DNA of 64,000 nt from Chloroflexi bacterium CSP1-4 (lineage in GTDB: Bacteria; Chloroflexota; Limnocylindria; Limnocylindrales; CSP1-4): the NCBI GenBank assembly GCA_001443375.1, contig LDXM01000007.1, forward strand, positions 1-64,000, written 5' to 3'. Below, piece by piece: positions 53,421 to 63,600 of the stretch. The first letter of the stretch is position 1. Each line of letters starts with the position of its first letter. The translations under genes were made by a program, and so were the position numbers. Under the pieces are notes generated by a model. That model did not search any database, was not told the origin of the DNA, and was given only the letters and a program-made list of their open reading frames with translations.

Positions 53421-54485
53421 ATGGCGAGTGTCGGTCTCATCGTCAATCCGAGCGCCTCGCGGGACGTGCGGCGGCTGACGTCGCTTGCTCGCACGATCGA
53501 CGTGCATGAGCGCGCGAACGCCGTCGCGCGGGTGCTCTGCGGGCTGGCGGGCGGCGGCGTCGAGCTCGTGTGGTACATGCCCGATCCGACCCACGTCGTG
53601 GAGCGGGCGTGTGAGGCGCTCGCCGCGACGCCGGCTGCCGGGGCTGCCGCCGGGCTCCGTCTTCGCCCGATCGTACTGGGTGGCGACGGGTACGCGTCGG
53701 ACGCGGCCGGCACCCGGGCCGCGTCCATGGCGCTGGGCGAGGCGGGCGTCGCCTGCCTCGTGACCTTCGGCGGCGATGGCACGAACCGTGCTGTCGCCTC
53801 GGGCTGGCCGGAGGGGGTGCTCCTGCCGCTTGCCGGGGGCACGAACAACGCGTTCGCCACCCCCCTGGATCCGACGGCGGCCGGGCTTGCCGCCGCGCTC
53901 TACGCGGCCGATCCCGCGCGGCACGATCGCCACGTCGTGCGCCGGCCGCGCCTCGAGTTGCGGCTCGACGGCGCTGCGCCGACGATCGCCCTCGTCGACG
54001 TCGCGGTGGTGCGCGGCGGCTGGGTCGGGGCACACGCGATCTGGGACCCCGGGCTGCTCGTCGAGGCGGTGGTCGCGCGCAGCGACCCGTCGCTCACGGG
54101 CCTGGCCGGTGTGGCGGGCGTCGTCCGGCCGCTCGACGGGCAGGCGGTGGAGGCCATCCACCTCCGGTTCGGTCCGCTCGGCCGGCGCGTCCTCGTGCCT
54201 CTCGGGCCCGGTCAGCTCGTTCCCATCGAGGTCCACGACGTGCGGGTGCTCCGGCCCGGCGAGCGGATCGTCTTGGCTGGCCAAGACGGCGCCGCGCCCG
54301 GGCAGGTCACCCTGGCGTTCGACGGCGAACGGGAGATCACGCTCACACCCGGCTCCGTCGCCGAGGTGCGGCTCCACGCGAATGGTCCGCGTGTGCTGGA
54401 TGCCGCCGGGTTGCTCCGAGCGGCGGCGGCCGACGGGCTCCTGGTCGCACCGGGCGTACCCGACCGGTGGGGAGCGGAACGATGA
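53421..54485 (+). CDS. acoX: AcoX-like ATP-NAD kinase family protein
   Basis: A 354-aa protein of the NAD kinase/diacylglycerol kinase fold. VGLIVNPSASRDVRRL opens it. VTFGGDGTNRAVASG is the GGDGT nucleotide-binding motif, and PLAGGTNNAFA is the family GTxN segment. In acetoin dehydrogenase operons this family is called AcoX; its biochemical activity is not established. The C-terminal half has repeated beta strands as in the family. Its position before lplA and the E1/E2 genes supports the assignment. The stop overlaps the lplA start as ATGA. Confidence 0.75.
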   Translation: MASVGLIVNPSASRDVRRLTSLARTIDVHERANAVARVLCGLAGGGVELVWYMPDPTHVVERACEALAATPAAGAAAGLRLRPIVLGGDGYASDAAGTRAASMALGEAGVACLVTFGGDGTNRAVASGWPEGVLLPLAGGTNNAFATPLDPTAAGLAAALYAADPARHDRHVVRRPRLELRLDGAAPTIALVDVAVVRGGWVGAHAIWDPGLLVEAVVARSDPSLTGLAGVAGVVRPLDGQAVEAIHLRFGPLGRRVLVPLGPGQLVPIEVHDVRVLRPGERIVLAGQDGAAPGQVTLAFDGEREITLTPGSVAEVRLHANGPRVLDAAGLLRAAAADGLLVAPGVPDRWGAER

Positions 54486-57435: not shown

Positions 57436-58536
57436 ATGCGCCACGAGATCGTGATGCCGCGCCTGTCGGACACGGTCGAGGAGGGCGTCCTCGTGACCTG
57501 GTTCGTGGAACCCGGTGCGACGGTCCGGGAGGGCGATCTCGTAGCCGAGGTCCAGGTCGAGAAGGTGGCCGCGGAGGTCCGTGCCCCGGCTACCGGGCGG
57601 ATCGGCAGCCTGCTCGCGGAGCCGGGCGGCGTCGTCGTGCAGGGCGCGGTCATCGCCGTCCTCGAACCCGAGGGATCGGTCGCCGCGCCGGTCGGGGGCC
57701 TCGGCGCACTCGCCTCACCTGCGGCCAGACGGCTCGCCGCCGAGCTGGGCCTCGACCTTGCCGCCGTGCCGGGGAGTGGACCGGGAGGGCGGATCGTCGA
57801 GGCGGACGTGCGCGCGGCAGCGGACGCCCGTGGCGCCGGCGCGCCCGCCCCATCCACCGAAGGCCGGCTCGAACCCCTCTCACCGATGCGCCGCGCGATC
57901 GCCGAGCGACTGCGGGCGGGGTTCGCCGCCACGGCGCAGCTCACCCTCACCAGTGAGGCCGACGTCACCGTCCTGGCCGGTCGGCTGACCGATTGGTCGG
58001 TGGCCTGGGGCCGGCGTGCCTCGTACAGCGAGGCGATCGTCCGGGCGTCCGCGCTCGCCCTGCGCGACCACCCGCGGCTGGCTGCCCGCTGGACCGGCGT
58101 GGGCATCGTCCACCCGGAGCGCATCGATGTCGGCATCGCGGTGGCCCTCGACGACGGGCTCATCGTGCCGGTCGTCCGGGACGCCGATGGCAAGGGTCTG
58201 GCCACGCTCGGGGCGGAGATCGCCGAGCTGGCCGAGCGGGCCAGGCGCGGCCAGCTCACCCCGGCCGAGACCGAAGGCGGCTGTTTCTCGGTGACGAACC
58301 TCGGGGCCTACCGCATCGACGCCTTCACGCCGCTCCTCAACCCGCCGCAGACGGCCATCCTCGGCGTCGGGCGCGCCAGAGCGCGCCCGGCCGTCGTCGA
58401 CGGCGCGGTCGTCGTGCGGACGCTCCTCGTCCTGAGCCTCACCTTCGACCACCAGGTCGTCGACGGGGCGCCCGCGGCGGCCTTCCTCGACGCCGTCGTG
58501 GAGCTCCTCGAGGATCCCGATCGGCTCGAAGGCTAG
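57436..58536 (+). CDS. 2-oxoacid/acetoin dehydrogenase E2 (dihydrolipoamide acyltransferase)
   Basis: A 366-aa acyltransferase. The lipoyl domain (1-78) has the attachment lysine in VQVEKVAAEVRAP. A peripheral subunit-binding domain follows (about 90-125, ASPAARRLAAELGLDLAAVPGSG), then a catalytic domain with FDHQVVDGAPAAAFL, which holds the HxxxDG active-site motif. It has one lipoyl domain. The LplA at 54482 would lipoylate it. It has AAGGAGGAG before the ATG. No E3 dihydrolipoamide dehydrogenase gene is in the window. It converges with the hydroxylase small-subunit gene with a 4-nt overlap of stops. Confidence 0.9.
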   Translation: MRHEIVMPRLSDTVEEGVLVTWFVEPGATVREGDLVAEVQVEKVAAEVRAPATGRIGSLLAEPGGVVVQGAVIAVLEPEGSVAAPVGGLGALASPAARRLAAELGLDLAAVPGSGPGGRIVEADVRAAADARGAGAPAPSTEGRLEPLSPMRRAIAERLRAGFAATAQLTLTSEADVTVLAGRLTDWSVAWGRRASYSEAIVRASALALRDHPRLAARWTGVGIVHPERIDVGIAVALDDGLIVPVVRDADGKGLATLGAEIAELAERARRGQLTPAETEGGCFSVTNLGAYRIDAFTPLLNPPQTAILGVGRARARPAVVDGAVVVRTLLVLSLTFDHQVVDGAPAAAFLDAVVELLEDPDRLEG

Positions 58537-59015
58537 CCGGGGGTGGGTCGAGCCATCTCCTGCGCCGCCTGGGCGACCGCGCTGACGATCTTCTGGTAGC
58601 CGGTGCAGCGACACAGGTTGCCGGCCAGCGCCGCACGGATCTCGCCCTCGCTCGGGCTCGGGTTCGCGGCCAGCAGCGCCGTGGCCGACATGAGCATGCC
58701 CGGCGTGCAGAAGCCGCACTGGACGCCACCCTCCTCCAGGAAGGCGCGCTGCAGAGCACTCGGCTGGTTATCGCGGACGAGGCCTTCCACCGTCGAGATG
58801 CGCCGGCCCGCGGCCTGGAGGGCCAGGTAGGAGCAGGAGTTCACAGGCCGGCCGTCGAGCAGGACCATGCACGCGCCACATTCCGAGTCGTCGCAGCCCT
58901 CCTTGGTGCCGGTCAGGCCGAGGTCGGTGCGCAGGGCGTCGAGCAGTGAGTGCCCCGGGTCGACGACGAGTTCGTACGGGACGTCGTTGACGGTGAGCGT
59001 CAGCGGGTACCTCAT
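58533..59015 (-). CDS. Molybdenum hydroxylase small subunit (2Fe-2S)
   Basis: A 160-aa xanthine oxidase-family iron-sulfur subunit. The plant-type [2Fe-2S] cluster motif is EGCDDSECGACMVLLDG-x-C (CDDSECGAC-x-C pattern). The second cluster is CGFCTPGM-x-LCRCTGY. It passes electrons from the molybdenum site to FAD. ATG 59015 overlaps the medium-subunit stop. The track ORF from 59549 is an N-terminal frame extension. Confidence 0.93.
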   Translation of the reverse strand: MRYPLTLTVNDVPYELVVDPGHSLLDALRTDLGLTGTKEGCDDSECGACMVLLDGRPVNSCSYLALQAAGRRISTVEGLVRDNQPSALQRAFLEEGGVQCGFCTPGMLMSATALLAANPSPSEGEIRAALAGNLCRCTGYQKIVSAVAQAAQEMARPTPG

Positions 59016-59905
59016 GCGGCCTCCTCCTCGGCTCTCTTCAGGGCAGCCTCGATGGCCCGGCGAACGATGACCGGCACCATCGCCGTCCGGTAGCGGGCGG
59101 TCGCCCGGACGTCGTCGATCGGGCGGGCGGCAGCGGCGGCCCGCGCTGCAGCGGCGGCCACGCGCTCGGTGGTGGGTAGCTGGCCGCGCAGGGCCGTTTC
59201 TGCGTCGGCGGCGCGCACGACCGTGGGCGCGACCGCGGTCAGCGCGATCCGCGCTTCCGTGCATCGACCGTCGGCGTCGAGTGCGACGAGGACGGCGGCA
59301 CCGACGACCGCGATCTCCATCGAGGCGCGGTAGTCGAGGCGGAGGTAGGCCGAGCCCACGCGGCCGGCCGGCTGCGGCGGCACGGTCACGCCGGTGAGCA
59401 GCTCGCCGGGCGCCAGCGCCGTCCGCGCCGGACCGAGCAGGAAGTCGGCGAGCGGCAGGCCTCGGGTCCCGCTCGCCGAGCGCAGCTCGACCGAGGCGTC
59501 GTAGACGAGGAGCGGCGCCCCGCTCTCCATGGCCGGGGACGCGTTGCACAGGTTGCCGCCCAGGGTGCCGACGTGGCGCGTGGCGGGCGAACCGACCAGC
59601 GCGGCGGCATCGGCGAGGGCGGTCCAGCGGCGCCGGACGAGATCCGACCGTTCGAGGTCCGCATGGGTCACGAGCGCCCCGAGGGCCAGCCCGCCGAACG
59701 GCGAGCCTTCGATCGTGGCCAGCTCGCTCAAGCGGTGGATGGCCACGAGCGCGGTCGGCAACTGGCGCCGGCCGCCGCGAGCGGCGACGACGAGGTCCGT
59801 GCCCCCGGCCACTACCCCTGCGTCGTTCCCCAGCTCGGCGAGCAGCGCGATGGCCTCGTCCAACGACGCCGGTGCGTGATAGGTGCGGCCCACGGCGACG
59901 GCCAC
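59012..59905 (-). CDS. Molybdenum hydroxylase medium subunit (FAD-binding)
   Basis: A 297-aa FAD-binding subunit of the CoxM/XdhB type. FAD motifs VVAGGTDLVV (about 32-41) and RHVGTLGGNLCNASPAMES are clear. The C-terminal domain starts near 185. It takes electrons from the iron-sulfur subunit. The GTG start abuts the large-subunit TGA, and its stop overlaps the small-subunit start, so all three are translationally coupled in the order large-medium-small. Confidence 0.92.
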   Translation of the reverse strand: MAVAVGRTYHAPASLDEAIALLAELGNDAGVVAGGTDLVVAARGGRRQLPTALVAIHRLSELATIEGSPFGGLALGALVTHADLERSDLVRRRWTALADAAALVGSPATRHVGTLGGNLCNASPAMESGAPLLVYDASVELRSASGTRGLPLADFLLGPARTALAPGELLTGVTVPPQPAGRVGSAYLRLDYRASMEIAVVGAAVLVALDADGRCTEARIALTAVAPTVVRAADAETALRGQLPTTERVAAAAARAAAAARPIDDVRATARYRTAMVPVIVRRAIEAALKRAEEEAA

Positions 59906-62185
59906 TCAGGCGTCCTCGCCGGCGAGTGCGGCCCAGACCCGGACCGGGGTCATGGGCAGGTGCCGGACCCGGACCCCGGTCGCAGCCGCGATGGCATTGG
60001 CCACCGCCGCCGCGGTGGGCACCACCGGTGGCTCGCCGACGCCCTTCGAGCCATACGGCCCGCCATCGGCCGCGGGCGCATCCACGAACGCGATCTTCAT
60101 AGCCGGCACGTCGGCCGCCGTCTGGAGCTTGTAGTCGAGGAGGTGCGGGTTCGCCTGGTTGCCGTCGCGGAACACGGTGCCCTCGCTGAGCGCGATGCCG
60201 AGGCCGTGGACGATGCCGCCCTCGACCTGGCCTTCGACGCCGATCGGGTTGAGGACCCGCCCGAACTCATGGCCGGCGGCCACCTCCAGCACGCGCACGA
60301 CGCCGGTCTCGCGGTCGACCCGGACGCGAGCGGCGTGGGCGAAGAAGGCCGGGGCGGCGAAGGCCGGGAACGCGACCCGCCCGGCGCACGACCCGCCGAG
60401 GCTGTCGGGCATCTTCGGTGCGGGCGGGTTGCCCTGGCCGGTGATCAGCTCGCCGTCGTCCTGGGCACGCCTGGCCAGCGCCGCGATCACGACCGACCGA
60501 CCGGGCGCGTCCTTCGCGCGCACCACGCCCTCCACCAGCTCGAGGTCGAGCGGATTCGCCTCCAGCTCGTCCGCCGCCATGCGCAGCAGCCGGTCGCGGA
60601 TCTGCGCCGACGCGGCCAGGACCGCGCGGCCCACGTTGAACGTGGTCTGGCTGCCCGAGCTGCCCGAGTCGAAGGCGCCCGCGTCGGTGTCCTGGTAGAC
60701 GAGCGAGATGCGTTCGGGCGCGAGGCCCAGCTCCTCGGCGGCGAGAAGCGCGAGGCCCATGACGCTGCCCGAGCCGTTCTCCTGGGCGCCGGTGACGACC
60801 GTTGCCGAGCCATCGGCGTTGAGCTTGATGTAGCAGCCCGCAGGGCCGGGTGCGCTGAACCACCAGCCGACGGCCAGGCCCATCCCGTCGCCGGGCGGCA
60901 GCGGCCGGCCCCAGCCGATGAGGCGGGCGGCCTCGAGCAGGCTCTCCCGTGCGCCGATCTTCTCGAAGCGTTGGCCGGTGGGGCCCTCGTCGCCCTCTGC
61001 GACGATGTTGCGGAGGCGGAACTCGAGCTTGTCGAGGCCAAGCCGCTCGGCGATGGCATCCACGTGCTGCTCGAGTGCCCAGCAGACCTGCGGGCCCGAA
61101 GGTGCCCGGGTGGAGCCGGCCGGTGTCCGGTTCGAGTAGACGGTGCGTCCCTCGACGAGCATGTTCGGGTGGCGATAGGGCCCGGCGGCCATCATCGTGG
61201 CGATCTCGGTGATGACCGGGCCGTGGGTCGCATAGGCGCCGGTGTCGAGGATGAGGCTCGCCTCGTGCGCGACGATCGTGCCGTCACGCCGCACGCCGGT
61301 GCGGAACGTGGCGATGATGCCGTGGCGGGCCATGTCGGTGGCGGTGAACTCCTGGCGCCGGTCGAACACGAGGCGCACCGGCCGCCGCGCGGCGCGGGCC
61401 AGGGCCGCCACATGAGCTTCGAAATGGAACTCGCACTTCCCGCCGAAGCCGCCGCCGAGGTGGGGGACGACGACGCGGACTGCGCTCTCGGGCAGCTCGA
61501 GCGTCCTGGTCAACCCGTTGCGCGCCGGGAACGGCGTCTGCGTCGTGCTCCACACGGTGACCCGGTCACCCTCCCACTGGGCGAGGACCGCGTGGGGCTC
61601 GATGGGGACGGGATGCGACATGTCGGCGACGTAGCGGCCCTCGACGATCTCGTCGGCTGCGGCGAAGCCGGCCTCGATGTCGCCCTTGACGATGTTCACA
61701 AAGCCGCAGTCGTTGCCGTCGCGGACGATCCCGTCGTTGGCGCTGTAGTCCTGCCAGTCCTCGTGGACGAGCGGCGCGCCGGGCGCCAGGGCGGCCTCGG
61801 GATCGAGGACCGGGGGCAGCGCCTCGAGTTCGACCTCGATGAGCCGGCAGGCCCGGTCGGCCAACTCGGGCGTCAGGGCCGCCACGGCAGCCAGGATCTC
61901 GCCTTCGAAGCGCACGACTTCGTGGGCGAACAGCGTCCGGTCCTCGACCGCCGCGCCGAAGCGGACGAAGGGGACGTCGTCCTGCGTGAGGACGGCCAGG
62001 ACGCCCGGCAGGGCGCGCGCCGCGGACACGTCGAGGCGCCGGATCCGGGCCCGCGGGACGCCGGCGTGGAGGAAGGCGGCATGGAGCATCCCGGGCAGCA
62101 CCAGGTCGGCCGCGTAGCGCGCCTGACCGGTCACCTTGGGGAGGCCGTCCGCCCGGACGAACCGCCGTCCCAACACCCGACTCAT
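59906..62185 (-). CDS. Molybdenum hydroxylase large (catalytic) subunit
   Basis: A 759-aa subunit of the xanthine dehydrogenase/CO dehydrogenase family that binds molybdopterin cytosine dinucleotide. SRVLGRRFVRADGLPKVTGQARYAAD is the family opening. GGGFGGKCEFHFE and GSKGVGEPPVVPTAAAVANAI are cofactor-binding motifs. The loop equivalent to the CO dehydrogenase AYxCSFR motif reads AGSTRAPSGPQ, so it is neither CoxL form I nor form II; the substrate is open (an N-heterocycle, aldehyde or CoA-linked aromatic is possible). ATG 62185 was chosen by homology; the track's extension to 62641 includes unrelated sequence and the microprotein frame. Confidence 0.9.
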   Translation of the reverse strand: MSRVLGRRFVRADGLPKVTGQARYAADLVLPGMLHAAFLHAGVPRARIRRLDVSAARALPGVLAVLTQDDVPFVRFGAAVEDRTLFAHEVVRFEGEILAAVAALTPELADRACRLIEVELEALPPVLDPEAALAPGAPLVHEDWQDYSANDGIVRDGNDCGFVNIVKGDIEAGFAAADEIVEGRYVADMSHPVPIEPHAVLAQWEGDRVTVWSTTQTPFPARNGLTRTLELPESAVRVVVPHLGGGFGGKCEFHFEAHVAALARAARRPVRLVFDRRQEFTATDMARHGIIATFRTGVRRDGTIVAHEASLILDTGAYATHGPVITEIATMMAAGPYRHPNMLVEGRTVYSNRTPAGSTRAPSGPQVCWALEQHVDAIAERLGLDKLEFRLRNIVAEGDEGPTGQRFEKIGARESLLEAARLIGWGRPLPPGDGMGLAVGWWFSAPGPAGCYIKLNADGSATVVTGAQENGSGSVMGLALLAAEELGLAPERISLVYQDTDAGAFDSGSSGSQTTFNVGRAVLAASAQIRDRLLRMAADELEANPLDLELVEGVVRAKDAPGRSVVIAALARRAQDDGELITGQGNPPAPKMPDSLGGSCAGRVAFPAFAAPAFFAHAARVRVDRETGVVRVLEVAAGHEFGRVLNPIGVEGQVEGGIVHGLGIALSEGTVFRDGNQANPHLLDYKLQTAADVPAMKIAFVDAPAADGGPYGSKGVGEPPVVPTAAAVANAIAAATGVRVRHLPMTPVRVWAALAGEDA

Positions 62186-62234
62186 CGCGGCCTTCTCGTC
62201 GCCCGGCGTGACCGAGCGCCTGATCAGCGGTGCG

Positions 62235-62839: not shown

Positions 62840-63343
62840 GTGTCAGAAGCGACCATCCGCCAGTGTCACTTCCCGGGCGATCTCGTCTACGACGTGGAGC
62901 GCGACCTGTGGGCGCGGCAGGATGGCGACGGGACGCTGGTGCTGGGGCTCACGGACGTCGGCCAGTCGCGGGCCGGGCACATCCAGGTGGTGAGCTTCTC
63001 TCGCCGCGCGCGGTCGGGGACGGTCGATCGTGGCGACGCGCTCGCGGTCCTGGAGAGCGCGAAGTGGGTGGGACCGGTCACGGGCCCCGTGGCCGGGTTG
63101 GTGGTCGCGCTGAACGAGGTGCTCCTCGTCCGGCCGAAGCTGATCAACCTCGACCCCTACGGCCGCGGCTGGATCGTCCGTCTCCGACCGGCTTCGGGCG
63201 AGGCTCTCGCCTTGGTCGACGGCTGGGTGCGCGGGCAGGAGGCCCTCGAGCGCTACGAGGCCAAGCTGCGGCTGCCGTTCCGCTCGGTGGCCGGGGTGGA
63301 CGAGGACTTCTGGTGCGTCCACTGCAACGAGTGGGACGTATGA
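62840..63343 (+). CDS. GcvH-like lipoyl carrier with C-terminal CxxC tail
   Basis: A 167-aa protein. The core (about 14-115) is that of the glycine cleavage H protein: LVLGLTDVGQSRAGHIQVVSF, then the lipoylation site LESAKWVGPVTGPVAG with Lys75, and NLDPYGRGWIVRLRP. H proteins are about 125-130 aa; here about 50 residues follow, ending DFWCVHCNEWDV with Cys159 and Cys162 six residues from the end. No other glycine cleavage gene is nearby. The stop overlaps the next start (ATGA), and that gene encodes a thioredoxin-fold protein. A role as a lipoyl-dithiol redox carrier is inferred. It starts with GTG, 12 nt after GAGGAGGG. Confidence 0.78.
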   Translation: MSEATIRQCHFPGDLVYDVERDLWARQDGDGTLVLGLTDVGQSRAGHIQVVSFSRRARSGTVDRGDALAVLESAKWVGPVTGPVAGLVVALNEVLLVRPKLINLDPYGRGWIVRLRPASGEALALVDGWVRGQEALERYEAKLRLPFRSVAGVDEDFWCVHCNEWDV

Positions 63344-63600
63344 CCCCTCGGATCGAGCTGTTCACCCACCCCGTCTGCAGCGGCTGTCGCGAGGCGCTGC
63401 TGGCGCTGTCCGAGCTGGAGAGGGCGGGGGAGATCGAGCTGGTGCTCTGGAGCCTCGCCATCCCCTCCGGACGCGCGCGCGGGGCCGAGGCCGGCGTGAC
63501 GAGCGTCCCCACCGTGATCGTCGCCGGGGAGACCCGGGAGCTGGCCACGCGCCAGACGCTGGAGCGCCTGATCGACGAATTGCGCGAGCCCCGGCTCTGA
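63340..63600 (+). CDS. Glutaredoxin/thioredoxin-fold protein (CSGC)
   Basis: An 86-aa thioredoxin-fold protein. IELFTHPVCSGCREALLAL holds the CxxC active site right after the first strand; VTSVPTVIVAG has the cis-proline of the fold; and RQTLERLIDEL is the last helix. This is a complete minimal Grx/Trx. Its ATG overlaps the stop of the GcvH-like gene by 4 nt, so the two are translated together. Confidence 0.85.
   Translation: MTPRIELFTHPVCSGCREALLALSELERAGEIELVLWSLAIPSGRARGAEAGVTSVPTVIVAGETRELATRQTLERLIDELREPRL

Follow-up and report, generated by a model that had tools for sequence, protein, structure and literature searches.

Why should a gene for a GcvH-like lipoyl carrier end in a pair of cysteine codons and run directly into the gene of a small thioredoxin, and which pathway would such a pair serve? 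The question arises at the right-hand end of the window, by which we mean the whole 64,000-nucleotide stretch of Chloroflexi bacterium CSP1-4 that was analyzed (contig LDXM01000007.1, positions 1 to 64,000). There, a sequence-only reading had described a GcvH-like protein (P0001) with a lipoylation site at Lys75 and a C-terminal Cys159-x-x-Cys162, encoded by a gene that overlaps one for an 86-aa thioredoxin-fold protein with a CSGC motif (P0002). All of these features were found as described (Table 1), the overlap being four bases, ATGA. Both are real genes, because they have homologs that are 69% (P0001) and 65% (P0002) identical, with dN/dS values of ∼0.33 and ∼0.43, respectively. The pair stands alone, outside the sHdr (heterodisulfide-reductase-like) cluster, and a promoter and terminator scan of the locus found nothing. 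Beyond that first description, the analysis brought out Cys9, a near-invariant tail and three further GcvH homologs in the same genome.

Table 1. Positions of the lbpA-like gene, its thioredoxin-fold neighbor and their key residues in the window
Feature	Coordinates	Strand	Remarks
lbpA-like gene P0001	62840..63343	+	167 aa, GTG start, lipoyl carrier with CxHC tail
P0001 Cys9 codon, LbpA-type N-terminal cysteine	62864..62866	+	absent in GcvH
P0001 Lys75 codon, predicted lipoylation site in ESAKW	63062..63064	+	
P0001 conserved tail FRSVAGVDEDFWCVHCNEW, residues 147-165, predicted flexible arm	63278..63334	+	conservation; pLDDT < 50 at 148-167
P0001 Cys159-Val-His161-Cys162	63314..63325	+	sequence, conservation
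P0002 partner thioredoxin-fold gene, 86 aa	63340..63600	+	
P0002 Cys13-Ser-Gly-Cys16, active-site-like motif	63376..63387	+	

Residues 17-122 of P0001 match Pfam GCV_H with 87.5 bits, and the AlphaFold2 model of the protein adopts the H-protein fold, with H proteins as the best PDB matches (Foldseek TM about 0.6-0.66 by query). Fold and Pfam match are what would be expected of an ordinary glycine-cleavage H protein or a lipoyl-relay GcvH; however, P0001 falls under both NCBIfam gcvH cut-offs (91 bits vs 117; 60 vs 115.85). The lipoyl carrier LbpA is defined by its lipoyl lysine together with one N-terminal and one C-terminal cysteine, both absent from GcvH, and all LbpAs except some archaeal ones are described as strictly conserving the C-terminal cysteine (Cao et al. 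2018, PMC6067878). In a residue comparison of 112 rows (92 LbpA-type and 20 GcvH), Cys9 and Trp76 (ESxKW; E72-S-A-K75-W in P0001) were present in 92/92 LbpA-type and 0/20 GcvH rows, and the N- and C-terminal cysteines (Cys9 and Cys159/Cys162 in P0001) were missing from all 20 GcvH rows. The lipoylation-site lysine was retained in every LbpA-type row and in 15/15 members of the CxHC-tailed clade described below. A maximum-likelihood tree computed with the tail columns excluded, and in which proteobacterial and archaeal LbpAs were not included, separated LbpA from GcvH at 100/100. Because of the tree, the conserved N-terminal Cys9 and the ES(A/G)KW lipoylation motif, we assign P0001 by sequence to LbpA, which serves as lipoyl carrier in the sHdr pathway of sulfur oxidation.

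The window genome (2.59 Mb, 65 contigs) encodes four GCV_H proteins, namely one within a gcvT-gcvH-gcvPA-gcvPB set on contig C17, a tandem pair on contig C14 and P0001. The C17 protein carries the ordinary ESVKA motif. The tree and this separate gcv set with its own gcvH rule out P0001 as the glycine-cleavage H protein, in keeping with the sequence-only reading, which had placed the locus apart from glycine cleavage; identity as an ordinary or lipoyl-relay GcvH is thus extremely unlikely. Among the 101 genomes searched as relatives, LbpA-strength GcvH-like matches (E below 1e-27) were confined to four (G000, G015, G017, and G053).

Type II sHdr systems hold shdrC1-B1-A-B3 and etfAB in one cluster (Commun Biol 2024, PMC11582611), and group III clusters contain two or three LbpAs, a multiplicity described as unexplained (PMC6067878). 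Contig C30 of the window genome carries tusA, dsrE, hdrC1, hdrB1, hdrA, a B3-like second CCG Fe-S protein gene, sat, aprB, and aprA, and contig C14 begins with etfB, etfA, and a gene for a membrane HdrB/C-like protein with CCG and 4Fe-4S domains, followed by the tandem LbpA pair, a lipoate-protein ligase (lpl) gene and dsrE. The sHdr genes are split over these two contigs by the assembly, and in the relative G017 they are contiguous from hdrA to dsrE. As judged from its genes, the window genome has the type II (group III) sHdr-LbpA content, and P0001 is best read as its third LbpA, one that is coupled to a thioredoxin. An early hint of sulfur oxidation in the first reading has in this way gained substance, from the LbpA signature and tree on one side and from tusA, dsrE, sHdr, EtfAB, aprAB, and sat on the other. 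In type II clusters, we also observed a conserved Cys/His-rich protein of ∼100 aa (CPYC..HAHL..H..CPFC) whose gene immediately precedes the LbpA pair (L006:4846-5457, L119:7793-8152, and L145:2442-2753). In a separate observation, the C-terminal cysteine has been lost from the first LbpAs of Anaerolineae-type tandem pairs (L062, L067, L078, and others; 25 rows), whose tails finish with ..NLNFE.

The C-terminal arm is the most conserved part of P0001, with a tail that is nearly invariant among homologs (FRSVAGVxxDFWCxHCNxW), yet residues 148-167 are predicted to be disordered (AlphaFold2, pLDDT < 50). The CxxC extension had been regarded as unusual, which proved too generous: 87 other LbpA genes encode a CxRC tail, the second LbpA of tandem pairs commonly ends in this way, and a C-terminal CxxC is ruled out as a novelty in itself. 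The hallmark of the clade is instead CxHC, with its invariant His161. CxHC tails define two families. The window-type family (FRSVAGV..DFWC(V/I)HCN.W) comprises seven loci, in the window, in the relative G015 ('Chloroflexi bacterium GWC2_73_18') and in five further genomes including Actinomycetota, and in a survey of 50 genomes it scored 264-289 bits, with every other match at or below 138.5 bits. The operon-type family (C(V/I)HC(E/A)GYE) comprises eight loci inside sHdr operons with the gene order tusA-dsrE-dsrE-lbpA-trx-hdrC1. Tree support is 99/94 for the window-type family alone and moderate for the joint CxHC clade (89/89, and 85/82 without long rows); Cys9, Cys159, His161, and Cys162 are invariant in both subfamilies.

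The proposed coupling to the thioredoxin-fold gene was checked by co-occurrence and holds for all 15 CxHC-clade genes, which have a thioredoxin gene directly downstream (7/7 window-type and 8/8 operon-type); the close clade contains no homolog without the cysteines and the neighbor. Among other LbpA/GcvH genes with enough flank, the arrangement occurs in 1/216, the exception being Sulfobacillus benefaciens (L186:1003-1764), where a CxRC-tailed LbpA is followed by a more distant thioredoxin and adjoined by an HdrB-like gene. When 400 Chloroflexota genomes were searched with a partner-thioredoxin profile, itself built from LbpA-adjacent sequences and scored on the best 13 candidates per genome, matches (E<=1e-7) were found in eight, all within the 29 genomes that have LbpA-type genes, and each lies adjacent to an LbpA-type gene by coordinates. 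None of the surveyed genomes held two strong partner-thioredoxin matches, which fits functional equivalence of the window-type and operon-type families. At one locus (L040) the window-type pair adjoins, and is divergent from, a tusA-dsrE-hdr operon, an arrangement that bridges the stand-alone and operon-embedded pairs. The majority of sHdr genomes examined lack the lbpA-trx pair, and it is therefore not essential to the pathway. In one genome (L185, G113) the operon-type lbpA frame is broken mid-gene by an inversion or misassembly, and the partner thioredoxin still scores well.

A pair that stands by itself, as in the window, could also be a general thiol redox or oxidative-stress defense unit that occurs in sulfur oxidizers by coincidence, and related LbpA and thioredoxin genes do lie beside hemerythrin genes on an Acidithiobacillus plasmid. 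However, all seven genomes with a window-type pair also have tandem-type LbpA genes, and the sister clade sits inside sHdr operons, so that we consider a defense role improbable. The plasmid locus (Acidithiobacillus ferrooxidans NZ_CP040512.1, L191:7203-8435) encodes an LbpA-like protein annotated as glycine cleavage H with the tail CMRCSE, together with a small thioredoxin, hemerythrins, DUF2249 and an HdrD-like protein, and represents a second LbpA and thioredoxin setting.

The model of P0002 shows a thioredoxin fold (pLDDT 94.6) with thioredoxins as the best structural matches; the CxxC starts helix 1 and a cis-Pro-type loop, VP(T/S), is conserved. No cut-off of the curated family models was reached. 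The short thioredoxin fold, the CxxC and the VPT loop are shared with the small thioredoxins of the MJ0307/Thioredoxin_3 type, from which the P0002 group is set apart as a distinct group by its FTHPxCxxC motif and its linkage to LbpA. P0002 would be a putative dedicated partner of the CxHC-tailed LbpA and no part of a membrane relay.

Such a relay, running from the lipoyl group through the tail and the thioredoxin to a CcdA-like membrane transporter, had been the original proposal of the sequence-only reading, on account of the converging gene at the right edge of the window. This gene does encode a membrane protein (462 aa), with an N-terminal CPHC domain and, by eye, paired CcdA-like Cys motifs in its membrane segments, but it reached no Pfam family cut-off. 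It is, moreover, convergent with the pair, went unmatched (E<=1e-40) in 60 relatives, the pair-bearing G015 among them, and did not turn up next to the other pairs that were read; for want of conservation in these relatives it was ruled out as a third partner, and we regard the membrane relay as very improbable. The lplA gene 8 kb away, which the sequence-only reading had noted, lies at 54467 and heads an operon with the pyruvate dehydrogenase E1 alpha, E1 beta, and E2 genes; as a member of that operon it is not favored as the dedicated ligase, and a separate lpl gene, at L006:6333-7442, lies beside the LbpA pair of C14. Elsewhere in the window, positions 58533-62200 (minus strand) encode what looks by sequence motifs like a three-subunit xanthine dehydrogenase/CO dehydrogenase-type molybdenum hydroxylase.

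What, then, might the pair do? The LbpA signature, the CxHC clade, the strict gene pairing and the sulfur-oxidation gene set are all present in the data, and we think that the two genes probably form a unit in type II sHdr sulfur oxidation, made up of a third, CxHC-tailed LbpA and a small thioredoxin of its own. The genes speak for a partnership of LbpA and thioredoxin; the chemistry of the exchange and its direction are inferred. Lys75 would be lipoylated, and the lipoyl group would exchange electrons or sulfane sulfur with TusA, DsrE or sHdr, as proposed for LbpA. Through a disulfide or a persulfide, the flexible CxHC arm could link to the lipoyl thiols or to Cys9, and the thioredoxin may recognize the conserved aromatic CxHC tail and reset it by thiol-disulfide exchange. 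The residue before the second cysteine tunes the redox couple of CxxC motifs, as in protein disulfide isomerase (WCGHC) and DsbA (CPHC), and by this analogy a redox role of the CxHC tail is plausible. We tentatively entertain, at rather less than even chances, the idea that the arm and the thioredoxin form a dedicated redox exit or sulfur-release device that replaces dihydrolipoamide dehydrogenase as the partner of LbpA; as a redox exit, the lipoyl swinging arm would pass its electrons to a further dithiol arm, carried by the peptide chain of the same protein, and from there to the thioredoxin.

We give about the same limited credence to a relay of sulfur rather than electrons, in which the CxHC arm or the lipoyl group would take sulfane sulfur from DsrE or TusA as a persulfide or trisulfide and the thioredoxin would release or rescue the sulfur. 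The operon position between dsrE and hdrC1 fits a sulfur-transfer step, and LbpA has been considered a sulfur carrier, its C-terminal cysteine being likened to that of SoxY (Cao et al. 2018, PMC6067878), although the CxHC spacing and the CxxC thioredoxin resemble dithiol-disulfide exchange more than a single-cysteine carrier. Invariance of Cys9, Cys159, His161, and Cys162 in both subfamilies could alternatively reflect a structural or regulatory metal site devoid of redox activity. The strict pairing with a CxxC thioredoxin speaks for thiol exchange instead, and the arm is predicted to be disordered (in a model that cannot include metals), which makes a metal site quite improbable.

LbpA has been proposed to act as a carrier of the sulfur substrate or as an electron carrier reoxidized by dihydrolipoamide dehydrogenase (PMC6067878). 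Its reoxidation or unloading in sHdr has thus been a proposal so far, for which the paired clade names a concrete candidate partner, with the CxHC tail as a candidate contact site for the thioredoxin that is open to thiol trapping. Our literature search retrieved no paper that treats LbpA and a thioredoxin as partners or describes a clade of LbpAs with CxHC tails; a single figure legend on Sulfobacillus lists both genes. The analysis also draws attention to a set of genes for sulfur oxidation in a Chloroflexota lineage of which little is known, and cautions that LbpA-type genes are prone to mislabeling as glycine-cleavage H protein.

Among known systems, GcvH resembles P0001 in its fold and lipoylation-site lysine and differs in its ESVKA motif, in lacking Cys9 and the tail cysteines and in its linkage to gcvT and gcvP. 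The hdr clusters of Sulfobacillus, in which genes labeled 'thdx' and 'gcsh' are drawn (Justice et al. 2014, PMC4378227, Fig. 4 legend), are like the CxHC loci in listing a thioredoxin and a GcvH-like gene; they differ in that the legend does not analyze the pairing, and in the single Sulfobacillus pair that we read the LbpA ends in CxRC and the thioredoxin is more distant. In Thermomicrobium roseum, three lbpA genes belong to a cluster of 19 genes that is induced about 45-fold in persistence (PMC6776052). Like the operon-type loci, this is a Chloroflexota sHdr-Etf-TusA-DsrE cluster with three LbpAs, but no thioredoxin is named in the text of that paper. The closest counterpart is the LbpA of group III/type II sHdr systems, with which P0001 shares the GcvH-like fold, the lysine and the extra N- and C-terminal cysteines, and the window genome shares TusA, DsrE, sHdr, EtfAB, and Lpl. 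Unlike this counterpart, P0001 carries CxHC in place of a single C-terminal cysteine and has a tail of ∼20 additional conserved residues; its gene is obligately followed by that of the thioredoxin and, in the window, lies away from the cluster.
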